Assembly (NCBI GenBank): GCA_030066875.1
Contig: JASJAS010000033.1
Coordinates: forward strand, 1 to 47,722
Length of the DNA: 47,722 nucleotides
Origin: Acidimicrobiia bacterium
GTDB lineage: Bacteria > Actinomycetota > Acidimicrobiia > Spongiisociales > UBA5794
Direction of reading: 5' to 3'
The notes under the pieces: generated by a model
Database searches by the model: none
Told to the model about the DNA's origin: nothing
What the model saw: the letters and a program-made list of their open reading frames with translations, nothing else
Position numbers and translations under genes: made by a program
Part shown: piece after piece, positions 12,876-36,820 of the stretch
Layout: each line of letters starts with the position of its first letter
Position numbering within the stretch: the stretch's first letter is position 1

Positions 12876-14258
12876 ATGCAGCGCAAACCGGACATCGTTG
12901 AGATCCTGGAACGCACCCAGACAGGCGAGTACTGCACGTCGAAGGACTGGGACACGCGAAAGCTGCCCGGCGCGGTGAAGCAAGTTCTCAGGGAACACGA
13001 CCTTATGGGCGTGTGTGATCCCGAAAACCCGGTCAACACTGACTTCGACCTGGCGGACCGGTTCTATGAAGCCGGCTATCAGCTGGCGCTGGAACTCGGG
13101 TTCCTGTGCACCGACACGGACCGAATCGTCGCCGTCTCACAGGAAGAACTCGACGATGCGCTCAGGCACGCCAAGTCTGAGTTGTTCGTCGGCTACGGCA
13201 AGGACGGCACCTGGCTGAAACACCGCCGGATCTCGGACCCGTACCCGATGAAGATCACTGCTTCCCTGGCCATCGCCAACAGCGAAGAGATGTTCCCTCT
13301 GTTGCTCGAAGGTATCGCACGGGAAAAGGAGGTCGACATACTCGGCGGCGGGTCGATGCTCCACGTCTTCGGTCGTGAGATCCTGTCGGGTACGCCGCTC
13401 GAGACGCTCGCTGGGTATGAACACGCCCGGATGCACGTCGAGGCCCGCCGCAAGGCCGGTAGACCGGGCATGGGCGGCATCAACATCTACTCGGCGGTCA
13501 CTGAGTTCGGACAGTTTGGTGGATACGGCCTCCCAGGAGGCGCCCCGACGACGGATCTCGCCCTGGTCCTCTTCCCTTCGGAGTTGAAGATCGACTACCG
13601 CACCCTGCACAAGGTCGTACACACGATCAATGTCGGCGGGATGATCAAGGCGGCGTCATACGGAATGATCGGAGGCATGGCCGGTCCTCCGGAGGGTGCC
13701 GTCATCTCGAGCATCGCCAACGGCCTGCTCATCTATCCGATCCTCCAAACCGCCATGGGCGGTGGCCAGATCTACGACGTGAGGTATCTGGCCAACGTCA
13801 ACCGGGAGGGTCTATGGGCTCTCAGCGTCGCCCAGCAAGCGCTCAGTCGCAACACCCACATCATCACCGATCCGACTACCAATCAGGTGTCCGGTGCCGG
13901 GACCGACAAGCTCCTCTACGAAATCGCGACCAGCATCGCCACCGCTGCTTGCAGCGGGACATCGATGTCAACTTCGCCCAGAACGGCCGGCGGCAAACTC
14001 ACCGACTACGTCACGCCACTCGAGTGTCGATTCAGCGCCGAGGTCGCACACGCCGCGTCGGCCCTGGCCCCGGCCGATGTCAATGAGATCGTCAAACAAC
14101 TCCTCCCCCGCTACGAGGACAACATCAAGACACCTGATCTCGGGCGGAGTTTTCAGGATCTCTACGATCTCAAGACCCTTACACCCATCCAGGAATGGGA
14201 GGACATCTACCGGAGGGTCAAGAGCGAGGTGACCGCCCTGGGAATTCCGCTCGAGTAG
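12876..14258 (+). CDS. non-pyrrolysine MtmB-family methyltransferase, paralogue 1
   Basis: The family's known member, archaeal MtmB, moves the methyl group of monomethylamine to a corrinoid protein. This 460-residue homologue aligns along its whole length: TGEYCTSKDWD near the N-terminus, LGFLCTDTDRIV, VFGREILSGTPLETL, KAGRPGMGGINIYS, SELKIDYRTLHK, and the C-terminal TPIQEWEDIYRRVKSEVTALG. At residue 202, where MtmB has pyrrolysine, the codon is ATC (Ile). The substrate is therefore probably not monomethylamine by the known mechanism and cannot be named. AGGAGG precedes the ATG. It diverges from a LysR gene and is followed after 53 bases by a homocysteine S-methyltransferase; no corrinoid protein is adjacent. 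Confidence 0.88.
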   Translation: MQRKPDIVEILERTQTGEYCTSKDWDTRKLPGAVKQVLREHDLMGVCDPENPVNTDFDLADRFYEAGYQLALELGFLCTDTDRIVAVSQEELDDALRHAKSELFVGYGKDGTWLKHRRISDPYPMKITASLAIANSEEMFPLLLEGIAREKEVDILGGGSMLHVFGREILSGTPLETLAGYEHARMHVEARRKAGRPGMGGINIYSAVTEFGQFGGYGLPGGAPTTDLALVLFPSELKIDYRTLHKVVHTINVGGMIKAASYGMIGGMAGPPEGAVISSIANGLLIYPILQTAMGGGQIYDVRYLANVNREGLWALSVAQQALSRNTHIITDPTTNQVSGAGTDKLLYEIATSIATAACSGTSMSTSPRTAGGKLTDYVTPLECRFSAEVAHAASALAPADVNEIVKQLLPRYEDNIKTPDLGRSFQDLYDLKTLTPIQEWEDIYRRVKSEVTALGIPLE

Positions 14259-14311
14259 CCCACACGATTGAGCAGACGGTGCGGTGTAGGCTCTTGCCTC
14301 CACGGAGGCCC

Positions 14312-15262
14312 ATGACTGATTCCACCGGACGAACCACGTTTACCCAGCTGCTGGATTCGGGCAGAACGCTGGTTGCCGACGGTGGGATGGGAACACTGCT
14401 CATGGAACGCGGTCTGGAGGTCGGAGGCTGCCCGGAACTGCTCAACGTCGAGCGACCCGACATCGTCGCCAAGATCCAAAAGGAGTATGTGACGGCCGGC
14501 GCCGACATCGTTCTGACAAACACGTTCGGCGGGAACCGAATCCGGCTTGGCCACAACCAGCTGGCAGATCGTGTCATCGAACTCAATCACGCCGGGGTCG
14601 AGATCACCCGCGGCGTGGCGGCGGAGTTCGACCACCCGGTGGCCGTGGCCGGCAGTATCGGCCCGACGGGAGAGCTGTTCACGCCCTATGGCAACCTCGA
14701 GCCCGAGGAAGCCCTAACTGTGTTCGAAGAGCAAGCGGTGGCGCTCGAGGACGCAGGAGTGGACGCTATCTGGATTGAAACCATGTCGGGCATCGAGGAG
14801 CTGGACGCTGCCTTCACCGCGGCGTCGAGCGCCGGTCTCCCGATCGCGACGACGATGAGCTTCGACACAAACGGCTGGACGATGATGGGTGTGGCCCCGC
14901 AAGTCTTGGCGGATTGGGCTGCGGCCAAGCCGCGGCGACCAGCGGCCGTAGGGGCCAATTGCGGGATCGGGCCCGAAGAGGCTATCGAAGTCGTAGGCGT
15001 GGTCAACCAGGTGATTCCGGAAGTGGCCGCGGTGGCCAAGGCGAATTGCGGACTGCCCTACTTCAACGACGAAGGTGACCTGGCATATCCACTCGAGCCG
15101 GTCGATATGACCGAATACGCAACGGCCGCCATCGCGTCCGGGGCCCGAATCATTGGTGCCTGTTGTGGCTCAACCCCCGCCCACGTTGCTGCGATACGAG
15201 CCGTCGTCAACTCGCACAACCGACCCGCCCCTTCATCGGTGCAACGGAATGCCGAGATCTAG
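14312..15262 (+). CDS. homocysteine S-methyltransferase family protein
   Basis: The 316-residue protein is a zinc-dependent homocysteine-binding TIM barrel like the N-terminal module of MetH or betaine-homocysteine methyltransferase. It shows VADGGMGTLLMERG, LTNTFGGNRIRL, AGSIGPTGEL, and the zinc ligands in VGANCGIGPEE and IIGACCGSTPAH. It lacks cobalamin- and folate-binding modules, so the methyl group must come from a separate donor. Its place behind an MtmB homologue suggests that it takes methyl groups from a methyl-corrinoid or directly from the demethylation substrate to make methionine. GGAGG precedes ATG 14312. The last 30 bases overlap the convergent MtmB paralogue 2. Confidence 0.9.
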   Translation: MTDSTGRTTFTQLLDSGRTLVADGGMGTLLMERGLEVGGCPELLNVERPDIVAKIQKEYVTAGADIVLTNTFGGNRIRLGHNQLADRVIELNHAGVEITRGVAAEFDHPVAVAGSIGPTGELFTPYGNLEPEEALTVFEEQAVALEDAGVDAIWIETMSGIEELDAAFTAASSAGLPIATTMSFDTNGWTMMGVAPQVLADWAAAKPRRPAAVGANCGIGPEEAIEVVGVVNQVIPEVAAVAKANCGLPYFNDEGDLAYPLEPVDMTEYATAAIASGARIIGACCGSTPAHVAAIRAVVNSHNRPAPSSVQRNAEI

Positions 15263-16618
15263 GCACTGGTCCTTGACCTTGTGGTATGCCGCTTCCCACT
15301 CGGCGATCGGCTGCGAGGTCTCCATGTCGTAAGCCCGCTGGAACGGGATACCGAGATCCGGCGTCTTGATCGAATCCTCGTAATGCGGCAAGAGGGCTTT
15401 GACGACCTCATTGACGTGACCGAGATCCATACCCGACGCGGCATGACCGACCTCGGCCAGCCAGCGACATTCGAGAGGGGTTAGATAGTCGGTGAGCTTT
15501 CCACCGGCACTGCGTGGGCCGGTGGTGAACGAAGCACCCGACGCCGCGATCATCGCGACACCTGCCGCCGTCTCGCGCAACAGGTTCTCCGTACCCGGCC
15601 CGGACACCTGATTGACAACCGGGTGGATGAGCAGGTGCGTGTTACGAGCCAGCGCCTGGGTAGCGACGCCTAGCGCCCAGAGACCTTCGCGATTGACATT
15701 TCCCAGATAGCGAACGTCGTAGACATTGCCACCGCCGGCCTGGTTTTGCAGGATGGCGTACGACAGCAACGCGCAGGCGACGCTCGAAACCACCGCTCCC
15801 TCAGGCGGTCCCGACATGCCGCCGATCATTGCCGGAGAATCGGCCTTCATCATCCCCCCGACATTGTGGGTGTGGACCACCTTGTGCAGAATCCTGTAGT
15901 CCGTCTTTAGCTCGGCCGGAAAGAGTATGAGGGCCAAGTCGTTTGTGCTGTAGCCGCCGCTGGCACCGTATGAACCCAGATGCCCGTACTCCGTCACCGC
16001 AGAGGTGGCAACGACGCCACCCATTCCGGGCCGGCCTGCGGCGCGGCGCGCCTCCTTGTGCATGATCGCGTGTTCATATCCAACGAGCGTCTCGAAGGGA
16101 GTCCCCGACAAGACTTCCTGACCGCGAACACTGATCAAGGAGCCGGCACACAGAAGATCGATCTCCGGTTCGCGAGCGATGAGGTATGTCATGGCGGGGA
16201 ATACGGCTTCCGATACCGCTAAGGCCAAGGCTCCAGCAGCCTTCATCGGGTACGGGTCGGATGGGGTCCGCGTCTTCAGCAGCGTCGCGTCCTTGCCTTC
16301 TCCAACCCAGAGCTCCGCGGGTGCGGCTTTGAGAGCAATGTCGAGTTCACCCTGGCTGACACTCACGATCCGTTCGGTGTCGGTGCACAGATAGCCGAGC
16401 TCGAGAGCTGCGGCGTAGCCAGCTTCGTAGAATCGGTCGGCCAGCTCGCCGTCGGTGTTCACCGGCTCTTCAGGGTTACATGCACCGGCCAGGCCGTGCT
16501 CCTTCAGGATGCCGCGAATGGTTGAAGGAAGCCGCTTGGTATCCCACTCCTTCTGGGTGCAGTACTCACCGGTTTGCGTCCTGCTCAGAATCTCGAGGAT
16601 GTGCGGCCGATTCGCCAC
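15233..16618 (-). CDS. non-pyrrolysine MtmB-family methyltransferase, paralogue 2
   Basis: This full-length MtmB homologue (461 residues) belongs to the same subgroup as paralogues 1, 3 and 7: TGEYCTQKEWDTKRLP, LGYLCTDTERIVSVSQGELD, SVRGQEVLSGTPFETLVGYE, SELKTDYRILHK-type segment (here AELKTDYRILHK) and PIAEWEAAYHKVKDQCLDLG. The pyrrolysine position in AGRPGMGGVVATSAV is Val. I start it at GTG 16618 (VANRPHIL), which matches the paralogue N-termini; the frame is open upstream but without similarity. It lies 11 bases downstream of paralogue 3 and is clearly in one operon with it. The two share long blocks of identity, suggesting tandem duplication. Confidence 0.88.
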   Translation of the reverse strand: MANRPHILEILSRTQTGEYCTQKEWDTKRLPSTIRGILKEHGLAGACNPEEPVNTDGELADRFYEAGYAAALELGYLCTDTERIVSVSQGELDIALKAAPAELWVGEGKDATLLKTRTPSDPYPMKAAGALALAVSEAVFPAMTYLIAREPEIDLLCAGSLISVRGQEVLSGTPFETLVGYEHAIMHKEARRAAGRPGMGGVVATSAVTEYGHLGSYGASGGYSTNDLALILFPAELKTDYRILHKVVHTHNVGGMMKADSPAMIGGMSGPPEGAVVSSVACALLSYAILQNQAGGGNVYDVRYLGNVNREGLWALGVATQALARNTHLLIHPVVNQVSGPGTENLLRETAAGVAMIAASGASFTTGPRSAGGKLTDYLTPLECRWLAEVGHAASGMDLGHVNEVVKALLPHYEDSIKTPDLGIPFQRAYDMETSQPIAEWEAAYHKVKDQCLDLGIPLHR

Positions 16619-16629
16619 GGCGGTCCTCG

Positions 16630-18018
16630 CTAGAAAGCATCCAAAGGTACGCCGAGGTCGATGCACTCCTCCTTCACCTTGCGGTAGGTCGCTTCCCACT
16701 CGGCCGTAGGCTGCAAAGTCTCCATGTCGTACGCCTGCTGGAATGGGATACCGAGATCCGGCTCTTTGATCGAGTCTTCGTACTGTGGAATCAGGGCCTT
16801 GACCACCTCGTTGACGTGGCCCAACTCCATGCCGGACCCTGCGTGACTGACTTCAGCCATCCAGCGACATTCGAGCGGTGTGATGTGGTCGGTCAGTTTG
16901 CCGCCTGCACTGCGGGGTCCGGTGTTCAGCGACGCGCCCGACGCCGCCATCAAAGCGATACTCGCGGCGATCTCCCGCAACAGGTTCTCGGTACCCGGGC
17001 CGGAGACTTGATTAGCGATGCCGTGAACGAGGATGTGCGTGTTCCTGCTCAACGCTTGATAGACGACGCTCATAGCCCACATGGCTTCCCGGTTGACGTT
17101 CGCCAGATAGCGGACGTCATAGATCTCGCCACCGCCGGCGTGGTTCTGCAAGATGGCATACGAGAGCACGGCACAGGCAATGGTTGACACGATGGCGCCC
17201 TCGGGCGGGCCCGGCATGCCGCCGATCATCGCCGGCGAGGCACAATTCATGATCCCGCCCATGTTCAAGGTGTGAACGACCTTGTGCAGTGTGCGGTAGT
17301 CGATCTTCATCTCAGCGGGGAACAGGATCAAAGCCAGATCCGTCGCCCGGTATGCGCCTCGCGACCCGTATGCACCAAACTGTCCATATTCCGTGACCGC
17401 CGACACACAGCCGAGCGCTCCCATGTCGGGGCGTCCGGCCCGCCGCCGGGCTTCCCGCATCATGATGCCTTGTTCATGACCCATCAGCGTCTCGATCGGC
17501 GTACCAGACATCACCTCCTGACCGCCGATGGTGGTGAGCGAACCGCCGTTGAGGATGTCCACCTCGCGTTCGTTGGCGATCAGATAGGTCATCAGCGGAT
17601 AGACCTCTTCCGACACCGTGATCCCAAACGGAGCGATCGCCTTCATGGGGTACGGGTCAGACGGCGTGCGACTCTTGACCACGGTCGCATCTTTGCCTTC
17701 ACCGATCGTGAGTTCGGAAGGAGCGTGTTTGAGAGAGTTGGCGAGTTCCTCGTCGGACACCCGCACGATCCGCTCGGTATCGGTACACAGGTATCCGAGT
17801 TCGAGAGCAGCCTGGTAGCCGGCCGAATAGAACCTGTCTGCCAGATCGGAGTCGGTGTTGACCGGCTCCTCAGGGTTGCAGGCACCGCTAAGACCGTGCT
17901 CCTTCAGGATTCCGCGAATCGTCAGTGGGATCCGCTTGGTATCCCACTCCTTTTGGGTGCAGTACTCCCCGGTCTGCGCCCGACCCAGGATCTCGAGAAT
18001 GGCGGGCTTGTTCTTCAT
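16630..18018 (-). CDS. non-pyrrolysine MtmB-family methyltransferase, paralogue 3
   Basis: This 462-residue MtmB homologue opens the two-gene minus-strand operon with paralogue 2. It has TGEYCTQKEWDTKRIP, LGYLCTDTERIVRVSDEELA, TIGGQEVMSGTPIETLMGHE, AEMKIDYRTLHK and PTAEWEATYRKVKEECIDLG. The pyrrolysine position in AGRPDMGALGCVSAV is Leu, with a Cys two residues on, and the usually invariant Gly of RPGM is Asp. GGGAGGACTC precedes the ATG. Its promoter (-35 at 18073-18078, -10 at 18049-18054) lies back to back with that of the amidohydrolase over a shared operator. Confidence 0.88.
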   Translation of the reverse strand: MKNKPAILEILGRAQTGEYCTQKEWDTKRIPLTIRGILKEHGLSGACNPEEPVNTDSDLADRFYSAGYQAALELGYLCTDTERIVRVSDEELANSLKHAPSELTIGEGKDATVVKSRTPSDPYPMKAIAPFGITVSEEVYPLMTYLIANEREVDILNGGSLTTIGGQEVMSGTPIETLMGHEQGIMMREARRRAGRPDMGALGCVSAVTEYGQFGAYGSRGAYRATDLALILFPAEMKIDYRTLHKVVHTLNMGGIMNCASPAMIGGMPGPPEGAIVSTIACAVLSYAILQNHAGGGEIYDVRYLANVNREAMWAMSVVYQALSRNTHILVHGIANQVSGPGTENLLREIAASIALMAASGASLNTGPRSAGGKLTDHITPLECRWMAEVSHAGSGMELGHVNEVVKALIPQYEDSIKEPDLGIPFQQAYDMETLQPTAEWEATYRKVKEECIDLGVPLDAF

Positions 18019-18043
18019 GAGTCCTCCCGACGGTGATTCCCTG

Positions 18044-18078
18044 GTGACGTGTTACATGTCACATGTTATCCTAGTCAC
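18044..18078. promoter_or_regulatory. divergent promoters with shared 17-bp operator (site 1)
   Basis: The dyad TTACATGTCACATGTTA at 18052-18068 matches the recurring consensus. On the plus strand GTGACG (18044-18049), 17 bases and TATCCT (18067-18072) form a promoter for the amidohydrolase. On the minus strand GTGACT (18078-18073), 18 bases and TAACAC (18054-18049) form one for MtmB paralogue 3. The operator covers both spacers, so one bound protein could control both directions. Confidence 0.65.
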
Positions 18079-19485
18079 ATGGAAACACAATATGACCTGC
18101 TTCTCAGCGGCGGAACAGTTCTCACGCTCGATTCTCAGCGGAGGGTGATCGAACCTGGCACCGTTGCGGTTAGCGGCAATCGCATCGCCGCGGTGGGTGC
18201 GTCCGCTGAATTCGAAGGCGCTTCTGCAACGCGCACCATCGACTGCACAGGGTCTGCGGTGATTCCTGGGTTTGTGGATTGCCACGACCACATGGAGCAA
18301 GGGATTGTCAAAGGCCTCGGCGAAGGCGAAGCGGTGTGGGAGTGGCTGACCACACTCATCTTCCCTTTGGGAGATGCGATGACGGTTGAGGAGGCGGTTG
18401 CCGCCACCCGCTATGCCGCGTTCGAAGCCGTTCGCGCCGGAATCACCTGCGTGATGAACAACCAGTACTTGCCGTGGGACGCCGAGACAACGGACGCCGT
18501 GGCCAAAGCAATGGAATCCGTCGGGCTACGTGGCGTCGTCGCCCGAGGGATGACCGGCACACCTCCGCCCGCCATGGCACACCGCGGGGACGACGCCCGA
18601 CCCTGGACGTACAGCACTGCCGAAGAGTTGCAGATCATGCGCGATCTTCTCGACAACTGGTCCCCCGACCGGCTGATTCGGCTATGGCCCGGACCAAACA
18701 ACCTCGTCTTCAACGACCAGGAACTGATTCGCGGCTGTGCTGAGTTGGCTCGGGAATACGGCACCAAGTGGCATACCCATTGCTGCGAAGCGCAGCAAGA
18801 TCCGGACATATACAAGAAGACCTACGGCATGAGCCCGGTGAAGTGGCTGAATGAAGCGGGTCTGCTGGGTCCGGAGACGACGCTGGCGCACACCATTTGG
18901 GTCTCGGACGAGGACATCGAGATGCTCGCCGCTTCCGGTGCGGCCGCTGCGCACAATCCGGTCTGCAATATGTATATCGCCTCGGGCGCGATGCGGCTGG
19001 GCCAATTCCTCGAGGCCGGAGTCACTGTTGGTCTCGGCATCGACGGTCCCTGTGTCGGCCACCGGATGGATCCCTTCGAGGCGATGAAACAGACCGTGTT
19101 GTTGCAGCGCCTCGACACCCTCGACCCGGCAGCTAGCCGGAGCGAAACGGCCCTCGAGCTTGGCACCCGCGGCGGTGCGGCCTTTACCGGATTCGAAATC
19201 GGATCGCTCGAGGAAGGGCGTCTGGCCGACATAGCTGTCGTCGACCTCACGGCTCCACATTGCGGACCTCGACCCAGGGCTGTGTCCGCAGTCGTCAACT
19301 CGGCAGGACCTCGGGATGTCACCACCGTGGTCATCGACGGCAGGGTCATCGTGGATGACGGCCGGTGCGTGACCATCGATGAGGCTGAGGTGGCGGCGGA
19401 GGCTGCGGCCGCGATGGAGAGCGTGGCTCGGAAGGCCGGTCTCGATCACTACCTAGAACCATGGCTCGACCCGTCACGGAACTAG
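18079..19485 (+). CDS. amidohydrolase of the AtzA/TrzN/MtaD (deaminase) type
   Basis: This metal-dependent hydrolase family removes amino or chloro groups from N-heterocycles (guanine, S-adenosylhomocysteine, triazines and others). The 468-residue protein has an N-terminal composite beta domain (DLLLSGGTVLTLD), metal ligands in GFVDCHDHMEQG, TKWHTHCCEAQQD, LAHTIWVSDEDIEML, and VGLGIDGPCVGHRMDPFEA. The GIDGP Asp is the catalytic metal ligand. I start it at ATG 18079: a -10 box ends only six bases upstream and there is no ribosome binding site, so the mRNA is probably leaderless. The substrate cannot be named. It shares its operator with the MtmB operon and the binding-protein genes, suggesting that it acts on the same compound class. 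Confidence 0.88.
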   Translation: METQYDLLLSGGTVLTLDSQRRVIEPGTVAVSGNRIAAVGASAEFEGASATRTIDCTGSAVIPGFVDCHDHMEQGIVKGLGEGEAVWEWLTTLIFPLGDAMTVEEAVAATRYAAFEAVRAGITCVMNNQYLPWDAETTDAVAKAMESVGLRGVVARGMTGTPPPAMAHRGDDARPWTYSTAEELQIMRDLLDNWSPDRLIRLWPGPNNLVFNDQELIRGCAELAREYGTKWHTHCCEAQQDPDIYKKTYGMSPVKWLNEAGLLGPETTLAHTIWVSDEDIEMLAASGAAAAHNPVCNMYIASGAMRLGQFLEAGVTVGLGIDGPCVGHRMDPFEAMKQTVLLQRLDTLDPAASRSETALELGTRGGAAFTGFEIGSLEEGRLADIAVVDLTAPHCGPRPRAVSAVVNSAGPRDVTTVVIDGRVIVDDGRCVTIDEAEVAAEAAAAMESVARKAGLDHYLEPWLDPSRN

Positions 19486-19501
19486 AGCTCCCGAATCTGG
19501 A

Positions 19502-19533
19502 TTGAAGCGGGCGGCGATTACATGTAATGTGTA
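19502..19533 (+). promoter_or_regulatory. promoter with 17-bp operator (site 2)
   Basis: TTGAAG (19502-19507), a 17-base spacer and TAATGT (19525-19530) form a promoter for the first binding-protein gene. The operator TTACATGTAATGTGTAG overlaps the spacer end and the -10 box, a position expected for repression. Confidence 0.68.
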
Positions 19534-19636
19534 GCACCGTGGCGGAACGGCGAGGGCTATGCAACGGGACAACGATTTGCTGCGTTGATTGCATGCTGCC
19601 CCCACAACCGGCCGCATGTCGATGAAGGGAATCCAG

Positions 19637-20773
19637 ATGACCAGAACCACGATCAAGTGGGCCACAATCGGTGTCGCACTCGCGATGCTTTTTGCGGCCT
19701 GCGGGGACGACACAACTGATACAACTCAGGCGGCTACCACTGCCGCACCGGAGACAACGGCCGCCGAGACGACGGCCGCACCAACAACCGCGGCCGATAC
19801 GGAAACCACCGCGGCGCCCGAGACAACCGCAGCCCCGACTGGGCCAACCGCGTTGAGCGCTGCCCTCATCAGTGACACGGTCGCTGAAGAACCATGGAAC
19901 GCCGTGATGCTGGATGCGTGGGGCCGGGTGCAGGCCGCCAAACCCAACGGGCTAGACATCACATACGAACTGTTCGAGGAGATCAACCTCGCGGATGTCG
20001 AACGAATTGCACGCGAGCTAGCGCTGTCCGGCAACTACGACATGATCTGGTTCCACGGTTCTGGGGCCGAGGCGATCGAGGCCATTCGCGATGAGTTCCC
20101 GGACCTCATCATGCCCTTCTCCGGCTCGGGGAACACGCCCACCGGCGGTCCAGCGTATTGGTACGACGTGTGGCTTCATGAACCGGCATACCTCACGGGG
20201 ATCGCGGCCGGCATGATGACCGAGACGAACAAGGTGGGTGCCGTCGCCGCCTTCCCGTTCCCGAATGTGAATCTTCCGTTGAACGCCTTCATCGCCGGTG
20301 CGCAGTCGGTGAATCCTGATGTCGAAGCCGTCGCCACCTACATCGAGTCTTGGTTCGATCCGGCGAAGGCCAAGGACTCGGCTTCAGCTCAGATCGCCGC
20401 CGGCGCAGACGCCATCTATGCCGAGCGATTCGGACCCTTTGACGCGGCGGTAGAGGCCGGCGACGTCATCGCTGTCGGTCATTTCTCCGATCAGACCGCG
20501 CTGGCACCCGACATTGCGATCGCCAGCACGCTCGCCCTGTGGGATCCTTCGATCGAGCATGCGATCGGTATCTGGTTGGACCACATGATCAACGGCACTC
20601 CCTACGACGCTCCGCTGGAGCGGCACATCTTCTCGATGGCTGAAGGTGGTGCAGGATTGGTGCTCAACGAGGCGATCATCCCCGATGATGTCCTCGCCGC
20701 GATACAGGAAGCCCAAGACAAGATCATGAGCGGTGAGCTCGCCGTCGAGGCCAACGAAGCGCCTATCGAGTGA
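19637..20773 (+). CDS. BMP/PnrA-family ABC substrate-binding lipoprotein 1
   Basis: This 378-residue extracytoplasmic binding protein belongs to the basic membrane protein family, whose characterised members bind purine nucleosides. The signal peptide ends in the lipobox LFAAC and is followed by a Thr/Ala/Glu-rich linker of about 50 residues. The family signature ESWFDPAKAKDSASAQIAAG, then GADAIYAERFG, is present. ATG 19637 has GAAGGGA six bases upstream. The protein is closely similar to binding protein 2 (for example shared WFDPAKAK, TETNK and AFPFPN/SFPFPN blocks). It is followed by a terminator-like hairpin and MtmB paralogue 4. The ligand is unknown; the family points to a nucleoside-like compound. 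Confidence 0.9.
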   Translation: MTRTTIKWATIGVALAMLFAACGDDTTDTTQAATTAAPETTAAETTAAPTTAADTETTAAPETTAAPTGPTALSAALISDTVAEEPWNAVMLDAWGRVQAAKPNGLDITYELFEEINLADVERIARELALSGNYDMIWFHGSGAEAIEAIRDEFPDLIMPFSGSGNTPTGGPAYWYDVWLHEPAYLTGIAAGMMTETNKVGAVAAFPFPNVNLPLNAFIAGAQSVNPDVEAVATYIESWFDPAKAKDSASAQIAAGADAIYAERFGPFDAAVEAGDVIAVGHFSDQTALAPDIAIASTLALWDPSIEHAIGIWLDHMINGTPYDAPLERHIFSMAEGGAGLVLNEAIIPDDVLAAIQEAQDKIMSGELAVEANEAPIE

Positions 20774-20791
20774 TCTGTCAATGACGCCTCT

Positions 20792-23630: not shown

Positions 23631-23664
23631 TTGCGCCAGGACTAGTTTGCATGTAATGTGCAAA
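23631..23664 (+). promoter_or_regulatory. promoter with 17-bp operator (site 3)
   Basis: TTGCGC (23631-23636), 17 bases and TAATGT (23654-23659) precede the second binding-protein gene. The dyad TTTGCATGTAATGTGCAAA at 23646-23664 has perfect six-base outer arms and covers the -10 box, as at site 2. Confidence 0.7.
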
Positions 23665-23690
23665 ATGCAACCCCTAAGGAGGGATTCAAG

Positions 23691-25025: not shown

Positions 25026-25091
25026 GTCGCATTAATGGCGGATGCCCATCTTGAATCGCATCCGAAACTGCCCGGGGAGGGAATAGCCGAC

Positions 25092-29971: not shown

Positions 29972-29998
29972 TCGGCAGCGCGGGTGCGACTGAGAGTC

Positions 29999-31234
29999 TC
30001 AGCCCGAGTACATGCGGGTGCGGTCAACAAACGGCACTCTGACAACGGTGGCCGCAACCGGGCCATGCTCGCCTTCGGCTTCCCACTCAACGCTTAGTCG
30101 TGTTCCGCGGTCTGCCATCCCTCTGTTGATTTGACCCAACCCGATCAGCCTCCTGAGGTTGGGGCTCCAGCATACGCTGGAGGCGGTCCCGACACGGCGG
30201 CCTTCGTGCATGACGGGGAGTCGCTCCCATCGGATGCGTCGCGAGACTTCCGGTGGCAGACCCGCTTCTTCGTAGATGGCAACCACATCCGTCCAATCGA
30301 GCTCGAGACCGGTGAATGCTCGTGGTGGCCCACCTGTCGCCTGCTCGTCGAGCAGCGCCTGCTTCCCCACGAAGTCGGCCTGCTTGTCGAGATCGACGAA
30401 CTTCCCTAGCCCTAGCTCGTAGGGTGACAGGATTGCTTCGTCGGAAGTGGTCTCGTATGGGGCGACTTGGGTCGAAGGGTCTGCGCTCATGTAGTCGATG
30501 CCGGGGATCAGAAACCCAGCTTCAACCCGAGCAACGTTTACCGCGTTGAGGGCCCAGGGCTGAATCCCCAGCGGCTCGCCGGCCTCAATCATCGCATCGA
30601 ACACTGCTGCGGCACCGTCGCTTGGAACCCAGAGCTCGTAGCCGAGCCCGCCCGTGAAACCCAGCCGCCACACGCGAACCTCTACCCCGCCGATCACGGC
30701 CGTGCGCCCACGGGCAAAACGAAGGCCCGACCAGTCCTCGGAAGTCGCAGCCTCCAACACGGCTCGGGAGTTCGGCCCCTGACAAGTGAGTACCCCAAAC
30801 GTGTCTGACACATCTTCGATTTGCACGTCATAGCTCTCGCAATGGCGTGCAAACCAGGTATCCAATCGCGTGCCCGTCGTGCAATAGAGGCTGTCCTCCA
30901 GTCGAAAGACGGGTGAGTCTTCGATCAACTTGCCTTGCTGGTTGCACCAGGCGGTGAACAATGCATGGTCTACGTCGATGCGGTGGATGTCGCGGGTAAT
31001 GAGACTATCGAGCAGCGCTGCGGCATCCGGCCCGGAAATGTAGTACTTGGTCATCGGAGACTTGTCATCGAGCACAGCGGCCTCGCGAACCGCTCGAAGC
31101 TCTGAGTTGAGACCGGCGAAGGCCTCAGGCACGTGGTATCGGTCCCAGGAGACCCAACGCCCCGAATAGTTGTATGGCGCGAACGATGAGGTGAATGGGG
31201 TGCGGTTGAATTCGCCGGGGTCGTAGTTACTCAT
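29999..31234 (-). CDS. GcvT-like (aminomethyltransferase family) protein 2
   Basis: This 411-residue paralogue of the protein at 22316 has the same length and matching blocks: SGRWVSWDRYHVPEAFAGLN, DKSPMTKYYISGPDAAALLD, QQGKLIEDSPVFRLEDSLY (catalytic-type Asp kept), FGVLTCQGPNSRAVLE, LGFTGGLGYELWVP and NVARVEAGFLIPGIDY. It is the last gene of the seven-gene minus-strand operon, 32 bases after MtmB paralogue 5. Because one GcvT-like gene sits behind each separate MtmB locus, I infer that these proteins hand the methyl group to tetrahydrofolate in place of the MtgA-type methyltransferases known from other corrinoid systems. A direct demethylase role, as in DmdA or LigM, is the main alternative. 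Confidence 0.87.
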   Translation of the reverse strand: MSNYDPGEFNRTPFTSSFAPYNYSGRWVSWDRYHVPEAFAGLNSELRAVREAAVLDDKSPMTKYYISGPDAAALLDSLITRDIHRIDVDHALFTAWCNQQGKLIEDSPVFRLEDSLYCTTGTRLDTWFARHCESYDVQIEDVSDTFGVLTCQGPNSRAVLEAATSEDWSGLRFARGRTAVIGGVEVRVWRLGFTGGLGYELWVPSDGAAAVFDAMIEAGEPLGIQPWALNAVNVARVEAGFLIPGIDYMSADPSTQVAPYETTSDEAILSPYELGLGKFVDLDKQADFVGKQALLDEQATGGPPRAFTGLELDWTDVVAIYEEAGLPPEVSRRIRWERLPVMHEGRRVGTASSVCWSPNLRRLIGLGQINRGMADRGTRLSVEWEAEGEHGPVAATVVRVPFVDRTRMYSG

Positions 31235-31266
31235 CTGTCTCCTCCATCACGCAACGCGGGTGGCGA

Positions 31267-32643
31267 CTACCTGAAGTCGACCCCCCAACTGGCTACCTCC
31301 TCCTTGACCTTGTCGTAGATGCCAAGCCACTCGTCTCTGGGACGAACTCTGGCCACGTCATACAGCTCTTCGAATGGCTTGCCGAACGGTTTGCCATCGA
31401 GTTCAGGCTCATACTCCGCAACCGCCTTCTGTACAACCTCCTCAGCCTGGTCCAGACTCATCCCAGTCACCGCGTGACCGACCTCGCCCATGAAACGAGA
31501 CTCCAAACCGGTGCAGTGGTTCAGGTGAACCCCGGTGGCCGATCGCGGCCCCATTAGGCGCGACGCACCACACACCGTGCCGATCGTCGCCGCAGCAACG
31601 ACCTCATAGAGAAGCGTCTCAGTTCCCGGCCCCGCAAGAGGCGAAATCGGCAGGTCCGTCATCAGTCCGGTGTGGCGCGACAGAGCGAGGTGGGCCGCGC
31701 TCATTGAACGCAGCAGCGGCGGTACAGTGTCCGCAGGTATCAACGGTGTAACGGGGGCGCTGCTATGGGTAGCGGCCATGTACATGAGCTGCATCGCTAC
31801 CAGGCCGGCCACGATGAGGACCGCAATGCCTTCCTCGCCGCCCCCCAGGCCGCCCAGAATCGGGTTGTAGAAGCTCTGGATGACGCCATCTTGACGCACC
31901 GAGTGAGCAACCTTGATCAAGAGGCCGTTGTTGACCTTCATCTCGCTGAACATCGCAATCATGTGCCAGTCGACCGGGCGATAGCCGCCCCTACTGATCG
32001 CAGAGAGATGCCCGACCTCGCTGATCGCCATCGATACGCAGCCGAACGCCATGCCGGGACGTCCCGCCCGACGCGCCGCATCGAAGATCAGGTCTACTTC
32101 CTGCCAAGCCGCCATCACTTCCAAGGCGGATTGGGTGCGGGCCTCCCTGCCATAAGTTGAGTCCAAACAACCGACCCCGGCGGTGTCGACGATCGGTTCC
32201 TGGATGTAGGACTGCATGATCGGTACGAACATGTCCTCACTCAGGGGCGCACCGATCGGTCCGCCAATGATGATCGGTGGGGTGGCATCTTCCACCGCTC
32301 GATAGCGCTCGGTACGAGCGTCGCGGCCCTCGCCGATCACGGCCTCCCACGGAGCCGACGCAAGATACTCCTCGATCTCACGACGAGTGAACACCATGCG
32401 CCGGCCCGTGCTTGTGTTGTATACCCCACAGCTCTCCAGAAAGTCCAGCGACGCATCGAACAACCGATCGATCACCGCATCGTCGCGCTGAATGAATCTG
32501 GAACGGTCAAACCCGATGTCGTACTCTTTCACGACGCGTGCGACTCCCGCTGCCACATGTTTCAGATCGAAATCCCTCTCCTCGCAAGGGGGACCGTCGT
32601 AGGCACGATCAATGATGTCGAGCAATCTTGACTGGTTCCGCAT
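31267..32643 (-). CDS. non-pyrrolysine MtmB-family methyltransferase, paralogue 5
   Basis: This 458-residue protein has exactly the length of archaeal MtmB. It forms a second subgroup with paralogue 6: RAYDGPPCEERDFDLKHV, LESCGVYNTSTGRRMVF, IGGPIGAPLSEDMFVPIM (compare GGPTGSPISEDVFMPVH of MtmB), SEMKVNNGLLIKVAHSV, ILGGLGGGEEGIAVLIVAG and GKPFEELYDVARVRPRDEWL. The pyrrolysine position in AGRPGMAFGCVSMAI is Gly201, followed by Cys202. I start it at ATG 32643, with AGAGAG upstream; the GTG at 32667 lacks a binding site. It follows paralogue 6 by 57 bases and precedes GcvT-like protein 2. Confidence 0.88.
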   Translation of the reverse strand: MRNQSRLLDIIDRAYDGPPCEERDFDLKHVAAGVARVVKEYDIGFDRSRFIQRDDAVIDRLFDASLDFLESCGVYNTSTGRRMVFTRREIEEYLASAPWEAVIGEGRDARTERYRAVEDATPPIIIGGPIGAPLSEDMFVPIMQSYIQEPIVDTAGVGCLDSTYGREARTQSALEVMAAWQEVDLIFDAARRAGRPGMAFGCVSMAISEVGHLSAISRGGYRPVDWHMIAMFSEMKVNNGLLIKVAHSVRQDGVIQSFYNPILGGLGGGEEGIAVLIVAGLVAMQLMYMAATHSSAPVTPLIPADTVPPLLRSMSAAHLALSRHTGLMTDLPISPLAGPGTETLLYEVVAAATIGTVCGASRLMGPRSATGVHLNHCTGLESRFMGEVGHAVTGMSLDQAEEVVQKAVAEYEPELDGKPFGKPFEELYDVARVRPRDEWLGIYDKVKEEVASWGVDFR

Positions 32644-32700
32644 CGGTGTTCTCTCTGTTCCAGCCACGCTTGGATGGGTCGGCTGCGATGGCCGCTCAAG

Positions 32701-34077
32701 TCACCCGAAGTCGACTCCCCAACTGGCTACCTCCTCCTTGACCTCGTCGTAGATGCCGAGCCATTCAGCGTTGGGCCGAACCTTGGCCACGTCATACAGC
32801 TCCGCGAAGGGCTTGCCAAACGGTTTGCCGGTCAATTCGGGCTCGTATCGGGCAACTGCCCTCTGCACGACCTCCTCAGCCTGCTCCCGACTCGTCCCAG
32901 TGACTGCGTGGCCGACTTCACCCATGAAGCGGGCCTCCAAGCCGGTGCAATGATTCAGATGAACCCCGGTGGCCGACCGGGGACCCATCAAACGCGAAGC
33001 ACCACAAACTGTGCCGACGGTTGCCGCAGCAACGACCTCATAGAGAAGCGTCTCTGTTCCCGGGCCGGCTAGTGGAGATATCGGCAGGTCCGTCATCATG
33101 CCCGTATGGCGCGACAAGGCGCTGTGGGCCGCACTCATTGAACGCAGCAGCTGCGGCACGGTATCGGCCGGGATCAAAGGCGTGACAGGGGCGCTGCTGT
33201 GGGTCGCGGCCATATACATGAGTTGCATCGCCATCAGGCCGGCCACGATGAGCACAGCAACACCTTCCTCGCCGCCTCCGAGGCCGCCCAGGATCGGGTT
33301 GTAGAAACTCTGGATGACACCATCGGTCCGTACCGAGTGAGCGACCTTGATCAGAAGGCCGTTGTTGACCTTCATTTCTGAAAACATGGCTATCGAGTGC
33401 CAGTCGACTGGGCGATAGCCACCTCGACTGATCGCCGACAGATGGCCGATCTCGCTGATCGCCATCTGCACACAACCGATCGACATCCCGGGACGTCCCG
33501 CCCGGCGCGCCGCATCAAAGATCAGGTCGACTTCCTGCCAAGCCGCCACCACCTCATACGGAGACTGGGTCCTCGGCTCCCTCCCATAGGTCGAATCCAG
33601 TGTCCCCGGCGTAGTCGTATCGACGATTGGTTCCTGTATATAGGACTGCATGATCGGCACATACATGTCCTCACTGAGGGGTGAGCCGATAGGGGAGCCA
33701 ATGATGGTGGGAGGCCGGGGGTCCTCGACCGACCGGTAGACCTCGGTGTGGGCATCGCGCCCCTCCCCGATTACGGCCTCTTTGGGTGCCGATGCGACGT
33801 ATTCCTTGATCTCGCGGCCTGTGAACAACATCCGTCGGCCGGTGGTGGCGTTGTAGACACCACAGGACTCGAGGAAGTCGAGCGAGGCTTCGAACAGGCG
33901 ATCGATCATGTCATCGTCCCGCTGTATAAACGTGGAACGGTCAAACCCGATGTCGTACTCCTTGACAACGCGCGCCACTCCCGCGGCTACGTGCTTCAGA
34001 TCGAAGTCCCTCTCCTCGCAAGGGGGACCGTCATAGGCACGATCGACAATATCCAAGAGCCTCGACTGATTCTGCAT
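32701..34077 (-). CDS. non-pyrrolysine MtmB-family methyltransferase, paralogue 6
   Basis: This 458-residue protein is very close to paralogue 5, with long identical runs in both halves, so the pair is a recent tandem duplication kept in one operon. The pyrrolysine position in AGRPGMSIGCVQMAI is Gly with Cys following. Differences from paralogue 5 include PGTLDSTYGREPRTQS for VGCLDSTYGREARTQS and MSIGCVQ for MAFGCVS next to the active site, which may tune substrate choice. ATG 34077 has GGAG six bases upstream. The gene lies 58 bases after a corrinoid protein gene, its probable methyl acceptor. Confidence 0.88.
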   Translation of the reverse strand: MQNQSRLLDIVDRAYDGPPCEERDFDLKHVAAGVARVVKEYDIGFDRSTFIQRDDDMIDRLFEASLDFLESCGVYNATTGRRMLFTGREIKEYVASAPKEAVIGEGRDAHTEVYRSVEDPRPPTIIGSPIGSPLSEDMYVPIMQSYIQEPIVDTTTPGTLDSTYGREPRTQSPYEVVAAWQEVDLIFDAARRAGRPGMSIGCVQMAISEIGHLSAISRGGYRPVDWHSIAMFSEMKVNNGLLIKVAHSVRTDGVIQSFYNPILGGLGGGEEGVAVLIVAGLMAMQLMYMAATHSSAPVTPLIPADTVPQLLRSMSAAHSALSRHTGMMTDLPISPLAGPGTETLLYEVVAAATVGTVCGASRLMGPRSATGVHLNHCTGLEARFMGEVGHAVTGTSREQAEEVVQRAVARYEPELTGKPFGKPFAELYDVAKVRPNAEWLGIYDEVKEEVASWGVDFG

Positions 34078-34135
34078 ACCCGACTCCAATCCTCACTACT
34101 GCCTCGGGGCGGTTGTTTGTTCCCAAATCGTGCGG

Positions 34136-34786
34136 CTAGCCGGACTCCATCAATGCCCGGACTGCATCGACAGCGTCGGCAGCGTTCTCCCCCCATCCAT
34201 CGGCGCCGGTCAGCTCGACGGTCTCCTCGGACACAGGGCCGCCGCCGATAATCAGTTTGAAGCGATCCCGATCAACCTCGCTCTCCTTCACCAGGTCGAT
34301 GACATCCCGCATGTACGGAATCGATGTGGTCATGAGCGATGACAGTCCGATGAGGTCGGCGTCTACTTCCCTGGCCTTCTTGATGAAGTCCTTTGGATCG
34401 ACATTCACGCCCAGGTTGTGGACCTCGTAGCCGTTCGCCTCCAATACTGCAGCGACGATGTTCTTGCCGATGTCGTGAATATCGCCAAAGACCGTCCCAA
34501 TGACTACGCGCCCTTCTGATGCAACCTCGATCGCGCTGAAGCGCTCCCTCAAGACGTCTTGGACCCCCTTGACAACGTCGGCGGCAAGCATCATTTCCGG
34601 GAGGAAGACCTCCATCCTGGCGAAGCGGTCGCCGATTTCTTTGAGGCACGGCATGATCGCGTCCTGGACAATGTCGAGAGGGTCGACGCCGGATTCGAGC
34701 AGCCCCTTGGCGGCTTCAATACCTCCATCTTCATCGCCGTTCTCGATGTTCGTGACCAGCTCGGAGTACTTCGGATCAATTGCCAT
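34136..34786 (-). CDS. methyltransferase corrinoid protein (MtmC/MtbC type) 1
   Basis: This 216-residue cytoplasmic protein carries a corrinoid cofactor between methyltransferases. Residues about 1-90 form the helical cap domain (LLESGVDPLDIVQDAIMPCL, MEVFLPEMMLAADV). The Rossmann-like corrinoid domain follows, with VVIGTVFGDIHDIGKNIV giving the DxHxxG cobalt-ligating His, then GLSSLMTTSIPYM and LIIGGGPVSEE. The length matches archaeal MtmC. ATG 34786 was chosen for its GGAGAG site. It lies between the deaminase and MtmB paralogues 6 and 5, which it probably serves. Confidence 0.93.
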   Translation of the reverse strand: MAIDPKYSELVTNIENGDEDGGIEAAKGLLESGVDPLDIVQDAIMPCLKEIGDRFARMEVFLPEMMLAADVVKGVQDVLRERFSAIEVASEGRVVIGTVFGDIHDIGKNIVAAVLEANGYEVHNLGVNVDPKDFIKKAREVDADLIGLSSLMTTSIPYMRDVIDLVKESEVDRDRFKLIIGGGPVSEETVELTGADGWGENAADAVDAVRALMESG

Positions 34787-34841
34787 TGCGGTCTCTCCTC
34801 TCGGACTCCCATCATCTGTCTTGGCCTTCGGCCAGATTGCG

Positions 34842-35417
34842 TCACACACCCCGCTCTCCGCGAATGGTCCTTTGTTGTGTCACTTCAGCCGAGATCAGCC
34901 ACGACTGCTTCGCCCAGTACTGCAACTCGGGGGAGCACCGGGCCATCCCAAACTCCTGCCTCTGAGCCATCTCTACCCAAACCGGTGTGAGTCGATCCAT
35001 GGTCGCCATCATCCCGCTCTCTTCGTCGAGAGAGGCGTAGAAGACCTTGCCGACACCGGCCGTGATAAGCCGGATCGTGCACATCGCACACGGCTCGAGC
35101 GACGTGAAGAGTTCGTACTCGTCGACGTTCGGTGCGTTGCGGTACTCGTCCTCGAATTGCGTCATCACGTCCATTTCGCCGTGCAGATCGCTACGGAAGT
35201 AGGGGTAATAGACACGGTTGTGACCACTGACCACCACCCTGCCGTCTCTCACCAAACACGCCCCGACGGCGTAGTTGCCTTCCTTGAATGCCGCAATCGA
35301 CTCCTCGATCGCCACCTTCACAAACGGGTCGTGCGAATGTCGATCGTCGGGTTGATACTGAGCGATGGCGTGCTCGAGCTCTTCCAGAGTCATCTCCGCC
35401 GTCGGATAGAGCGCCAC
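34842..35417 (-). CDS. nucleoside/nucleobase deaminase (CDA superfamily)
   Basis: This 191-residue zinc deaminase is of the guanine/cytosine/tRNA-adenosine deaminase type. The catalytic motif is HGEMDVM (His ligand and proton-shuttle Glu) near residue 77, and the second motif is SLEPCAMCTIRLITAGVGKV with two zinc Cys. GTG 35417 is chosen for the GGAGGG upstream; the longer frame runs into the neighbouring gene. It is embedded in the methyltransferase operon between an MtmB and a corrinoid gene, so its substrate is probably an intermediate of the same pathway, for instance an amino-substituted heterocycle. Which one cannot be read from the sequence. Confidence 0.87.
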   Translation of the reverse strand: MALYPTAEMTLEELEHAIAQYQPDDRHSHDPFVKVAIEESIAAFKEGNYAVGACLVRDGRVVVSGHNRVYYPYFRSDLHGEMDVMTQFEDEYRNAPNVDEYELFTSLEPCAMCTIRLITAGVGKVFYASLDEESGMMATMDRLTPVWVEMAQRQEFGMARCSPELQYWAKQSWLISAEVTQQRTIRGERGV

Positions 35418-35431
35418 CGGTCCCTCCTCGC

Positions 35432-36820
35432 CTACCAAGGATTCAAAGGAACCCCGAGGTCGATGCATTCATCCTTGACCTTGTGATAGATCGCTTGCCA
35501 TTCCGGTATGGGTTCGAGGGTGTCCAGGTTGTAGGCCTTCTGGAACGGAAGCCCGAGATCGGGTTCCTTGATGGTGTCCTCGTAGTGGGGCAGCGCGGCC
35601 TTCACGAACTCATTGACATCTTCAAGGGCCATCCCGGATGCGGCGTGGCTTATCTCGGACATGAAGCGGCATTCGAGTGGCGTGATGTGGTCGGTCAGCT
35701 TGCCGCCTGCGCTCCGAGGCCCGGTGGACAGCGTTCCTCCGGCGACGGCGCCAACGGCAACGCTGGCGGCGATCTCCCACAGCAGCTTCTCGGTGCCCGG
35801 CCCAGAGACCTGATTCATGCAGGGGTGCGTCATCAGGTGCGTATTCCGGCCCAGCGCCTGCATCGACAGACTCTGCGCCCACAGTGCTTCTCTGTTGACG
35901 TTGGAGAGCGTCCGTACGTCGTAGACCTCGCCACCGCCGGTTTGGGGCTGCAGAATCGTGTACTGAAGCAGCGCGCATGCGATGCTCGAGATCACGGCTC
36001 CCTCCGGCGGGCCGGGCATGCCGCCGATCATTGCCGGCGAGTCGGCCTTCATCGCACCGCCCACATTGTGAACCTGGACCACTTTGTGCAGTGTGCGGTA
36101 GTCGATCTTCATCTCCGACGGGAACAGCACCAGAGCCAGGTCCTTTGTGCTGTAGCCGCCTTTGGCACCGTACGAGCTCAACATCCCGTACTCAGTGACA
36201 GCTGAGATCGACACGATGGCGCCCATGCCAGGCCTGCCGGCCTTGCGGCGCGCCTCTTTGTGCATTTGGGCGTGCTCGTATCCCATGAACGTCTCGATCG
36301 GTGTGCTTGACAGCACCTCCTTGCCGCGAATGGTGATCAGCGAGCCGCCGTTGAGCAGATCAACCTCAGGCTCGCGGGCGATCAGGTAGTGCATCGCCGG
36401 CCAATACTCCTCGGATACTGCGATACCGAGGGTGCAGGCGGTCTTCATTGGATAAGGATCAGAAGGTGTGCGCGACTTGAGCAACGTCGCATGCTGGCCT
36501 TCACCGACCAACAGCTCCGAGGGTGCAGCCTCGACTGCGAGGTCGAGTTCGCCCTGGGTGACGCTGATGATGCGTTCGGTGTCGGTGCAGTGAAAACCCA
36601 GTTCGAGTGCTGCTTGGTAGCCGGCTGCATAGAACTTGTCTGCAAGCTCCATGTCGGTGTTCACCGGGTTGTCGGGATCACATGCCCCCGCCAGATCGTG
36701 TTCCTTGAGGATGTTGCGAATGGTTCCCGGGATTCGCTTGGTGTCCCATTCCTTTTGTGTGCAGTACTCCCCGGTCTGTGTGCGAGTCAAGATTTCGAGA
36801 ATGTCTGGCTTGTTTTCCAC
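35432..36820 (-). CDS. non-pyrrolysine MtmB-family methyltransferase, paralogue 7
   Basis: This 462-residue MtmB homologue belongs to the subgroup of paralogues 1-3, although it sits in the operon of 5 and 6: TGEYCTQKEWDTKRIP, LGFHCTDTERIISVTQGELD, TIRGKEVLSSTPIETFMGYE, SEMKIDYRTLHK and PIPEWQAIYHKVKDECIDLG. The pyrrolysine position in AGRPGMGAIVSISAV is Ile. GTG 36820 (VENKPDIL) matches the paralogue N-termini and has GGAGGT close upstream. It follows the first corrinoid protein of the operon by 32 bases, its likely partner. Confidence 0.88.
   Translation of the reverse strand: MENKPDILEILTRTQTGEYCTQKEWDTKRIPGTIRNILKEHDLAGACDPDNPVNTDMELADKFYAAGYQAALELGFHCTDTERIISVTQGELDLAVEAAPSELLVGEGQHATLLKSRTPSDPYPMKTACTLGIAVSEEYWPAMHYLIAREPEVDLLNGGSLITIRGKEVLSSTPIETFMGYEHAQMHKEARRKAGRPGMGAIVSISAVTEYGMLSSYGAKGGYSTKDLALVLFPSEMKIDYRTLHKVVQVHNVGGAMKADSPAMIGGMPGPPEGAVISSIACALLQYTILQPQTGGGEVYDVRTLSNVNREALWAQSLSMQALGRNTHLMTHPCMNQVSGPGTEKLLWEIAASVAVGAVAGGTLSTGPRSAGGKLTDHITPLECRFMSEISHAASGMALEDVNEFVKAALPHYEDTIKEPDLGLPFQKAYNLDTLEPIPEWQAIYHKVKDECIDLGVPLNPW

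Follow-up and report, generated by a model that had tools for sequence, protein, structure and literature searches.

Seven MtmB-family genes in one contig

The window, a stretch of 47,722 nucleotides that makes up the whole of contig JASJAS010000033.1 (C110) of an Acidimicrobiia bacterium (assembly GCA_030066875.1; 3.16 Mb in 171 contigs, 81% complete), harbors seven genes of the MtmB methyltransferase family, none of which encodes pyrrolysine (Pyl). The seven genes fall in three clades of the family tree. Clade A comprises 12876..14258 on the plus strand (E = 6.3e-69 against the Pfam model PF05369) and, on the minus strand, 15233..16699 (3.4e-71; probable start near 16621), 16630..18018 (1.5e-78), and 35432..36832 (1.2e-74; probable start 36820); these four share 62–72% identity. 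Clade B is represented by 20876..22276 on the plus strand (1.3e-87), and clade C by 31267..32667 (1.6e-101) and 32701..34089 (4.6e-103), both on the minus strand and 87% identical, a recent tandem pair.

An initial annotation, made from the sequence alone, had placed seven full-length MtmB relatives here, and the profile searches bear this out far beyond chance. PF05369 (MtmB) is the sole Pfam family matched by each of the seven proteins at E ≤ 0.001; the profile is covered from position 2–6 to position 449–450 of 450, with scores of 233–346 bits against a cut-off of 25. The frames are 460–488 residues long, the upper value being that of 15233, since the earliest GTG of that frame is 26 codons ahead of the start indicated by its paralogues. 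NCBIfam gave no name to any of the seven proteins. The MttB model PF06253 matches none of them and nothing else in the genome. The AlphaFold model of 16630 (pLDDT 94.9), the one of the seven that was modelled, superimposes on the MtmB structure 1nth with a TM-score of 0.93 and an rmsd of 2.0 at 28% identity, whereas the best TM-score against MttB structures is 0.52. When 13 MtmB-type copies, taken from this genome and its relative UBA5794, were combined into a profile, Methanosarcina barkeri MtmB itself scored 1e-107 against it. The seven genes are pyrrolysine-free members of the MtmB family and not MttB; an MttB identity or a misread frame was rejected on the Pfam searches, the genome scan, and the intact codons.

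At the position aligned to residue 202 of M. barkeri MtmB, the pyrrolysine position and the ninth residue of the AGRPxM motif, the seven genes encode, in map order, Ile (ATC), Val (GTC), Leu (CTC), Cys (TGC), Gly (GGC), Gly (GGT), and Ile (ATC), as first read, and each contains zero in-frame stops. A hidden pyrrolysine system was likewise rejected, as no match to PylS was found in the 81% complete genome and no TAG is present in the genes. Glu229, Glu259, and Gln333 (M. barkeri numbering), the residues around Pyl in M. barkeri MtmB, are not kept in any window protein; a search of PMC9842639 gave no mention of these residues. Among 129 aligned rows, the seven Pyl rows and no others have Glu229 and Gln333; Glu259 occurs in these seven and in 14 more, with no window protein among them. 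M. barkeri MtmB binds methylamine through the pyrrolysine ring, so the loss of this residue, together with that of Glu229 and Gln333 in all seven proteins, argues against monomethylamine as the substrate.

Phylogeny and distribution

A quick LG+G4 tree of the 129 sequences with SH-aLRT support, archaeal MtmB included, places the seven Pyl rows (six TAG-bearing genes from loci L084, L087, L091, and L093, and M. barkeri MtmB) in one supported group, apart from the 122 others. All seven window genes lie outside it, within one set of 49 rows (support 97) drawn mostly from Acidimicrobiia and Chloroflexota, with some Bacillota and others. The clade B gene 20876 is sister to a gene in an Anaerolineales metagenome-assembled genome (MAG; locus L039). 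The short loci L001–L013, as well as L020 and L034 (on the same contig as L017/L018), were kept outside gene calling and the tree; L080 and sequences under 430 residues, such as those of L036 and L065, were kept outside the tree, and the latter two loci were assigned to the window clade for the neighbor counts below by identity alone (46% and 41%).

The genome as a whole carries 11 MtmB copies, seven of them in the window. Within the class the family is rare, being found in three of 395 genomes with this one counted, and it was absent from all six congeners examined. Arrays of MtmB genes are not unique to this genome. Two other Acidimicrobiia contigs were compared, DIDS01000032.1 (UBA5794) and DHIO01000035.1 (UBA4744), and the latter contains six full-length MtmB frames plus fragments. 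The Anaerolineales contig CALBUI010000155.1 (L052 and L023) contains six full-length and two cut MtmB stretches in 42 kb.

Corrinoid proteins and candidate methyl acceptors

Two corrinoid proteins of the cognate type (PF02310/PF02607) are encoded on the minus strand of the window, 34136..34849 with a DIHDIG version of the DxHxxG motif and 36853..37593 with DAHDIG; the latter is 84% identical to its partner in UBA5794 locus L018. Gene 36853 opens a minus-strand run of seven genes with short gaps or overlaps, in the order corrinoid protein 36853, MtmB 35432, CDA-fold deaminase 34842, corrinoid protein 34136, MtmB 32701, MtmB 31267, and a GcvT-like gene at 29999. Across the 81 sources defined in the next section but one, a member of the corrinoid-protein cluster lies within 6 kb of MtmB in 54, an MtmB frame having been called in 75.

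Candidate partners for the onward transfer of the methyl group are found beside other MtmB copies of the same genome. On contig C170 an MtmB gene, an MtrH-type methyltransferase, a gene for a 226-residue protein, and methylenetetrahydrofolate reductase (MTHFR) follow one another in one direction, and further along lie a corrinoid protein, a second MtmB gene, and the corrinoid activator RACo (PF14574, 217.7 bits; cut by the contig end). The MtrH-type gene scores 300.6 bits against the methyltetrahydrofolate:corrinoid methyltransferase model NF005719 (cut-off 259), the only match to this model in the genome. The C170 genes make up a complete set for corrinoid methyl transfer, with folate as the probable acceptor. 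In UBA4744, genes for a corrinoid protein, MtmB, MtrH, and RACo are consecutive on one strand, the RACo frame being named by its likeness to the C170 protein, as its match to the AcsV model is far under cut-off. The 226-residue protein between MtrH and MTHFR (P0008; L014 2394–3074) has no Pfam or NCBIfam match and has relatives in five MtmB-bearing loci in all; by eye it resembles a methionine-synthase activation domain with a Cys-rich tail.

The window also contains two GcvT-fold folate-type methyltransferases. One (22316..23551, plus strand; PF01571/PF08669) begins 39 bases after the clade B MtmB gene, and the other (29999..31234, minus strand; PF01571) closes the seven-gene run. Both are nearest to GcvT and to the GcvT-like part of trimethylamine N-oxide (TMAO) demethylase, with every curated cut-off missed; solved relatives of 29999 include GcvT, TMAO demethylase, and vanillate O-demethylase. 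Five of the seven GcvT-family places in this genome adjoin genes of BMP-type import systems. As a general partner of MtmB, GcvT was rejected, being found on two of 30 window-clade contigs plus UBA4744.

Importers, deaminases, and molybdenum hydroxylases in the window

On the plus strand the order is an ATZ/TRZ-type amidohydrolase (18049..19485), a substrate-binding protein of the BMP family of ABC importers (19589..20773; PF02608), MtmB 20876, the GcvT-like gene 22316, two further BMP-family binding proteins (23658..24821, PF02608 E = 2.8e-29; 25035..26255), a two-domain ABC ATPase (26365..27921; PF00005), and two ABC permeases (27918..29048 and 29072..29971; both PF02653). The models nearest to the amidohydrolase are those of 5'-deoxyadenosine deaminase, N-ethylammeline chlorohydrolase, and 8-oxoguanine deaminase. 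The minus-strand run contributes a CDA-fold deaminase (34842..35468; PF00383) of the superfamily of TadA, cytosine deaminase, and guanine deaminase. The amidohydrolase and the deaminase belong to superfamilies rich in purine and triazine deaminases, with every curated cut-off missed. Also on the minus strand lies the large subunit of a molybdenum hydroxylase (42310..44619), which at 805.1 bits passes the cut-off of 783.65 of the NCBIfam pucD (xanthine dehydrogenase D) model TIGR03196. A [2Fe-2S] subunit of a molybdenum hydroxylase (47101..47721, minus strand; PF01799/PF00111), whose matches to xanthine dehydrogenase-like models are all below cut-off, runs off the contig end.

Of the three binding proteins, 25035 is the one nearest to AtzT, a protein reported to have been crystallized with guanine and to bind it with a KD of 110 nM (PMC6834077). 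It matches AtzT (6pi5) at 2e-69 over 321 residues and 3s99 at 3.8e-68, the next solved BMP proteins following only at 1.9e-17 and weaker; for 19589, the best solved relatives are the same two, at 3.9e-24 and 6.6e-22. The AtzT site residues Y45/S97/F98/E165/W194/N218/N220 correspond to W/S/F/D/W/G/A in 25035, so that four of the seven positions are identical or aromatic for aromatic, namely the aromatic pair, Ser97, and Phe98. Asp takes the place of Glu165. Asn218 and Asn220 are replaced by Gly and Ala, and these smaller residues might leave space for a substituent. All 28 aligned MtmB-linked BMP proteins retain the aromatic pair, a comparison inside the linked set; one protein of more than 600 residues (L064) was left out of this alignment.

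Conserved gene neighborhoods

The neighborhoods of MtmB genes were compared in 81 sources, namely 75 of 77 loci of named genomes, five loci of this genome and UBA5794, and the window. Neighbors were counted with iterated local profiles seeded by window or C170 proteins, and background rates came from Pfam models, so that two different counting models are being compared. The background comprises 174 BMP proteins in 51 genomes and 153 molybdenum hydroxylases in 23 genomes, and rates refer to these two families only. Open reading frames were called greedily, which left six of the 81 sources without a called MtmB frame and some MtmB genes undrawn. The locus set also holds repeats, as position 1 of L062 duplicates a molybdenum hydroxylase of L019 and, among the other non-Pyl loci, L080 duplicates one BMP gene of L045.

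For the counts the window clade comprises 33 sources on 30 contigs (0.53 Mb). On these 30 contigs a corrinoid protein and an ATZ/TRZ amidohydrolase are each found on 18, a BMP-type ATPase on 15, a molybdenum hydroxylase on 13, a BMP binding protein on 11, RACo on seven, MtrH on four, and a GcvT-like protein on two. The loci contain 15 BMP binding proteins where 0.54 would be expected and 15 molybdenum hydroxylases (14 distinct) where 1.0 would be expected. With the window removed, the counts are 12 against 0.49 and 14 against 0.91. The linkage of the clade to BMP importers and molybdenum hydroxylases is seen across phyla.

BMP proteins are also concentrated in the Methanomethylicota loci (nine against 0.23 expected). 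In each of the five Methanomethylicota genomes examined, the single detected BMP protein lies beside a tandem MtmB pair. The arrangement in this group (L037, L038, L041, L044, L046–L048, L050, L055, L059, and L060) is a corrinoid protein with tandem, unlike, pyrrolysine-free MtmB genes and an opposite-strand BMP-type importer set, partly cut by contig ends. The remaining loci of non-Pyl MtmB contain four molybdenum hydroxylases against 0.83 expected. The four Pyl loci contain neither family; they are no real control because just 0.06 BMP proteins and 0.11 molybdenum hydroxylases would be expected there.

Proposed function and alternatives

It is very probable that the seven genes take part in corrinoid-dependent methyl transfer to folate. 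They would be the catalytic MT1 components of pyrrolysine-free, MtmB-type systems in which an N-bound methyl group passes to the cob(I)alamin of the corrinoid protein 34136 or 36853. From there it would pass to tetrahydrofolate via the MtrH-type methyltransferase of C170, or perhaps the adjacent GcvT-like proteins, and MTHFR could oxidize it further, while RACo would re-reduce oxidized cobalamin.

The nature of the substrate is less certain. The importer related to AtzT would bring in a small nitrogen heterocycle, and once demethylated the ring may be deaminated or oxidized by the ATZ/TRZ amidohydrolase, the CDA-fold deaminase, and the xanthine dehydrogenase-type molybdenum hydroxylase. Purine anions are fair leaving groups, much like the phenolates of O-demethylases. 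The explanation that best fits the evidence overall is that the genes encode corrinoid N-demethylases of methylated purine-like heterocycles with tetrahydrofolate as acceptor, and we hold it tentatively; the purine-like N-methyl substrates, taken by themselves, are an equally tentative and slightly weaker proposal. Separate clades would take separate rings or methyl positions. The initial annotation had concluded that seven paralogues imply several substrates. That there are several is plausible, given three divergent clades whose neighboring partner genes differ; the number of paralogues is less telling, since two are 87% identical and four lie in one clade. A broader scheme, in which pyrrolysine-free MtmB and AtzT-like BMP importers demethylate N-methylated nucleobases, with folate as acceptor in Acidimicrobiia and Chloroflexota and with methane made from methylated heterocycles in Methanomethylicota, is doubtful.

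Several observations weigh against a purine-like substrate. MtrH, MTHFR, and RACo were not found within the window itself. The amidohydrolase matches all lie under curated cut-offs, so that "purine deaminase" describes its nearest relative only. Ser97, Phe98, an acid at 165, both aromatic residues, and small residues at 218 and 220 are combined in 25035 alone among the 28 linked BMP proteins, and 19589, 23658, and several others are without the Ser/Phe pair of AtzT. The Methanomethylicota loci contain no molybdenum hydroxylase (0.42 expected) and no ATZ/TRZ amidohydrolase (0 of 16), and the BMP linkage is weaker in the other non-Pyl loci, at five proteins (one the L045 repeat, the other four distinct from those of the window clade) against 0.45 expected. 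Poisson values for the linkage, which reach down to 4e-17, treat the loci as independent despite their shared descent. Finally, in the two cases where a relative has been assigned a function, the substrates are quaternary amines (MtqB; PMC13044021) or estrogens (EmtA; PMC7448270), as those reports describe them.

The first of these relatives underlies the strongest alternative, an unlikely one in our judgment, in which the window enzymes demethylate quaternary amines such as choline, tetramethylammonium, or betaines, and the nucleobase-type neighbors are incidental. MtqB, a pyrrolysine-free MtmB homolog that was tested biochemically, is reported to act on tetramethylammonium and choline (PMC13044021). 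In the window, MtmB 12876 is directly followed by a gene resembling homocysteine S-methyltransferase and the MetH N-domain (14195..15262, plus strand; PF02574 E = 4.4e-63; true start probably further in), which is nearest to the NCBIfam betaine-homocysteine S-methyltransferase (BHMT) model at 326.1 bits, just under the cut-off of 338, and so also counts against purines. On the other side, the window frames scanned yielded no known importer family for betaine or choline, and the linkage to BMP proteins and molybdenum hydroxylases recurs across phyla.

Somewhat less likely again is a general catabolic island in which aromatic acids and related molecules, vanillate-like or trigonelline-like, lose O-methyl or N-methyl groups. 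A UbiD decarboxylase (38231), a UbiX-like flavoprotein (39587), and an amidohydrolase (40272) occupy positions 38231–41192 of the window, and VanA_C-type Rieske oxygenases (L016 8467–9534; L014 6573–12107) occur on C170 and, next to a corrinoid protein and MtmB, on C156; both sets speak against purines. Molybdenum hydroxylases, moreover, act on other nitrogen-containing rings too. However, UbiD relatives are found in only three of the 81 sources and the Rieske family on three of 30 window-clade contigs, compared with 15 of 30 for BMP ATPases, and 25035 is nearest to a nucleobase-binding protein. Relatives of UbiD and the amidohydrolase also adjoin MtmB in the Chloroflexi locus L024. The Rieske enzymes place an oxygen-dependent type of demethylase close to an oxygen-sensitive cofactor system.

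A reversed direction, or transfer to ring carbon, as in EmtA, is quite improbable. The enzymes would then methylate an aromatic or steroid-like compound to begin its breakdown. According to its report (PMC7448270), EmtA is related to MtmB, has no pyrrolysine, and is encoded close to a corrinoid subunit and a RACE-like activator; the BHMT/MetH-like gene at 14195 would fit such a role. A scan of the window frames and of ten C170 frames gave neither S-adenosylhomocysteine hydrolase nor MetK, the companions of emtABCD in that report (PMC7448270), and MtrH and MTHFR suit the entry of methyl groups into folate, though both enzymes also run in reverse.

Demethylation of monomethylamine without pyrrolysine is very unlikely despite the shared family and fold, the slight activity reported for MtqB with this substrate (PMC13044021), and the example of Methanosuratincola petrocarbonis LWZ-6, which is reported to use monomethylamine (PMC12244365) and whose species name is borne by a MAG with pyrrolysine-free MtmB genes (L072), two points that also count against purines; beyond the lost residues described above, eleven copies in several clades would be superfluous for one small substrate.

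Comparison with known systems

The initial annotation knew of no characterized expansion of the MtmB family, a view that is out of date given three reports. MtqB (2026) of Methanococcoides methylutens Q3c, published with a tree of 1,061 MtmB-family sequences, is assigned to tetramethylammonium and choline (PMC13044021); EmtA (2020) of Denitratisoma methylates estrogens (PMC7448270); and Ga0180325_111810 of strain DCMF (2022) is an induced protein of the MtmB superfamily with its function left open (PMC9768040). From PMC9635834 we drew nothing further about function. Pyrrolysine-free MtmB relatives are therefore already known, and what seems to be new is the neighbor set of BMP importers and molybdenum hydroxylases. 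Among the matches listed from open-licence literature, there was no corrinoid demethylation of methylxanthines or methylated nucleobases and no link of MtmB to BMP importers or purines.

The window proteins resemble M. barkeri MtmB in end-to-end homology, in the barrel fold (16630), and in the class of corrinoid partner. They differ in the residues named above, in that PylS was not detected, and in an acceptor that looks like tetrahydrofolate rather than coenzyme M. By description, MtqB is likewise a pyrrolysine-free homolog with its own corrinoid protein, but it belongs to a methanogen and to quaternary amines (PMC13044021), whereas the window has an array of copies, accompanied by BMP importers, in a genome of the Acidimicrobiia type. 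EmtA, also compared by description, shares a bacterial host, the family, and a nearby corrinoid subunit and activator, but catalyzes S-adenosylmethionine (SAM)-dependent methylation of an aromatic ring (PMC7448270); no SAM-regeneration genes were found among the frames scanned here. The strain DCMF protein is again a pyrrolysine-free bacterial relative (PMC9768040); the DCMF MtmB in our set (L079), which may not be Ga0180325_111810, lies in another clade of the tree and has no BMP genes in its 21 kb locus. A parallel Pyl-free expansion exists in MttB/MtgB (PF06253), a different methylamine methyltransferase family.

Public genomes contain many pyrrolysine-free MtmB relatives, most of them without a function, and the linkage reported here points to methylated purine-like rings as a substrate class that can be tested for a large clade of them. 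If the proposal is correct, these systems would represent an oxygen-independent demethylation of compounds such as methylxanthines or methylguanines, would hint at how such enzymes work without pyrrolysine, and would caution against annotating these genes as methylamine utilization, methanogens included.

Genomic context

A binning artefact was rejected, as the window agrees in composition with other contigs of the genome. G+C content is 0.61–0.63 in the window and in C170, C14, C156, C138, C55, C2, and C71 (the last two picked because of their terminal-oxidase genes), and the tetranucleotide correlation of these contigs with the window is 0.970–0.987. The corresponding values are 0.91 for UBA5794, 0.96 for UBA4744, and -0.20 to 0.74 for three Chloroflexota-type loci, one Kiritimatiellae locus, and one archaeal locus. 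These values make contamination from a near relative unlikely, although the absence of MtmB from all six congeners keeps it in view. Carriage on a plasmid was rejected, as none of 72,556 plasmids was matched in a tblastn search with two of the seven proteins. COX1-family genes occur in three places, so the organism is probably not a strict anaerobe.

The MtmB genes 16630 and 15233 form a tandem pair. A locus without MtmB on contig C138 (L101, 100–13548) contains a GcvT-like gene, two BMP binding proteins, an ATPase, a permease, an ATZ/TRZ amidohydrolase, and molybdenum hydroxylase subunits, and is likely a sister pathway. At the 5′ end of the window, a few kb from the MtmB array and as if for cofactor supply, lies a plus-strand group of genes for corrinoid uptake, adenosylation, and lower-ligand remodelling (1207..8822), which encodes a binding protein, a FecCD permease, an ATPase, a CobB/CobQ-like protein, an adenosyltransferase, CobU, DBI_PRT, CobS, and a histidine phosphatase.

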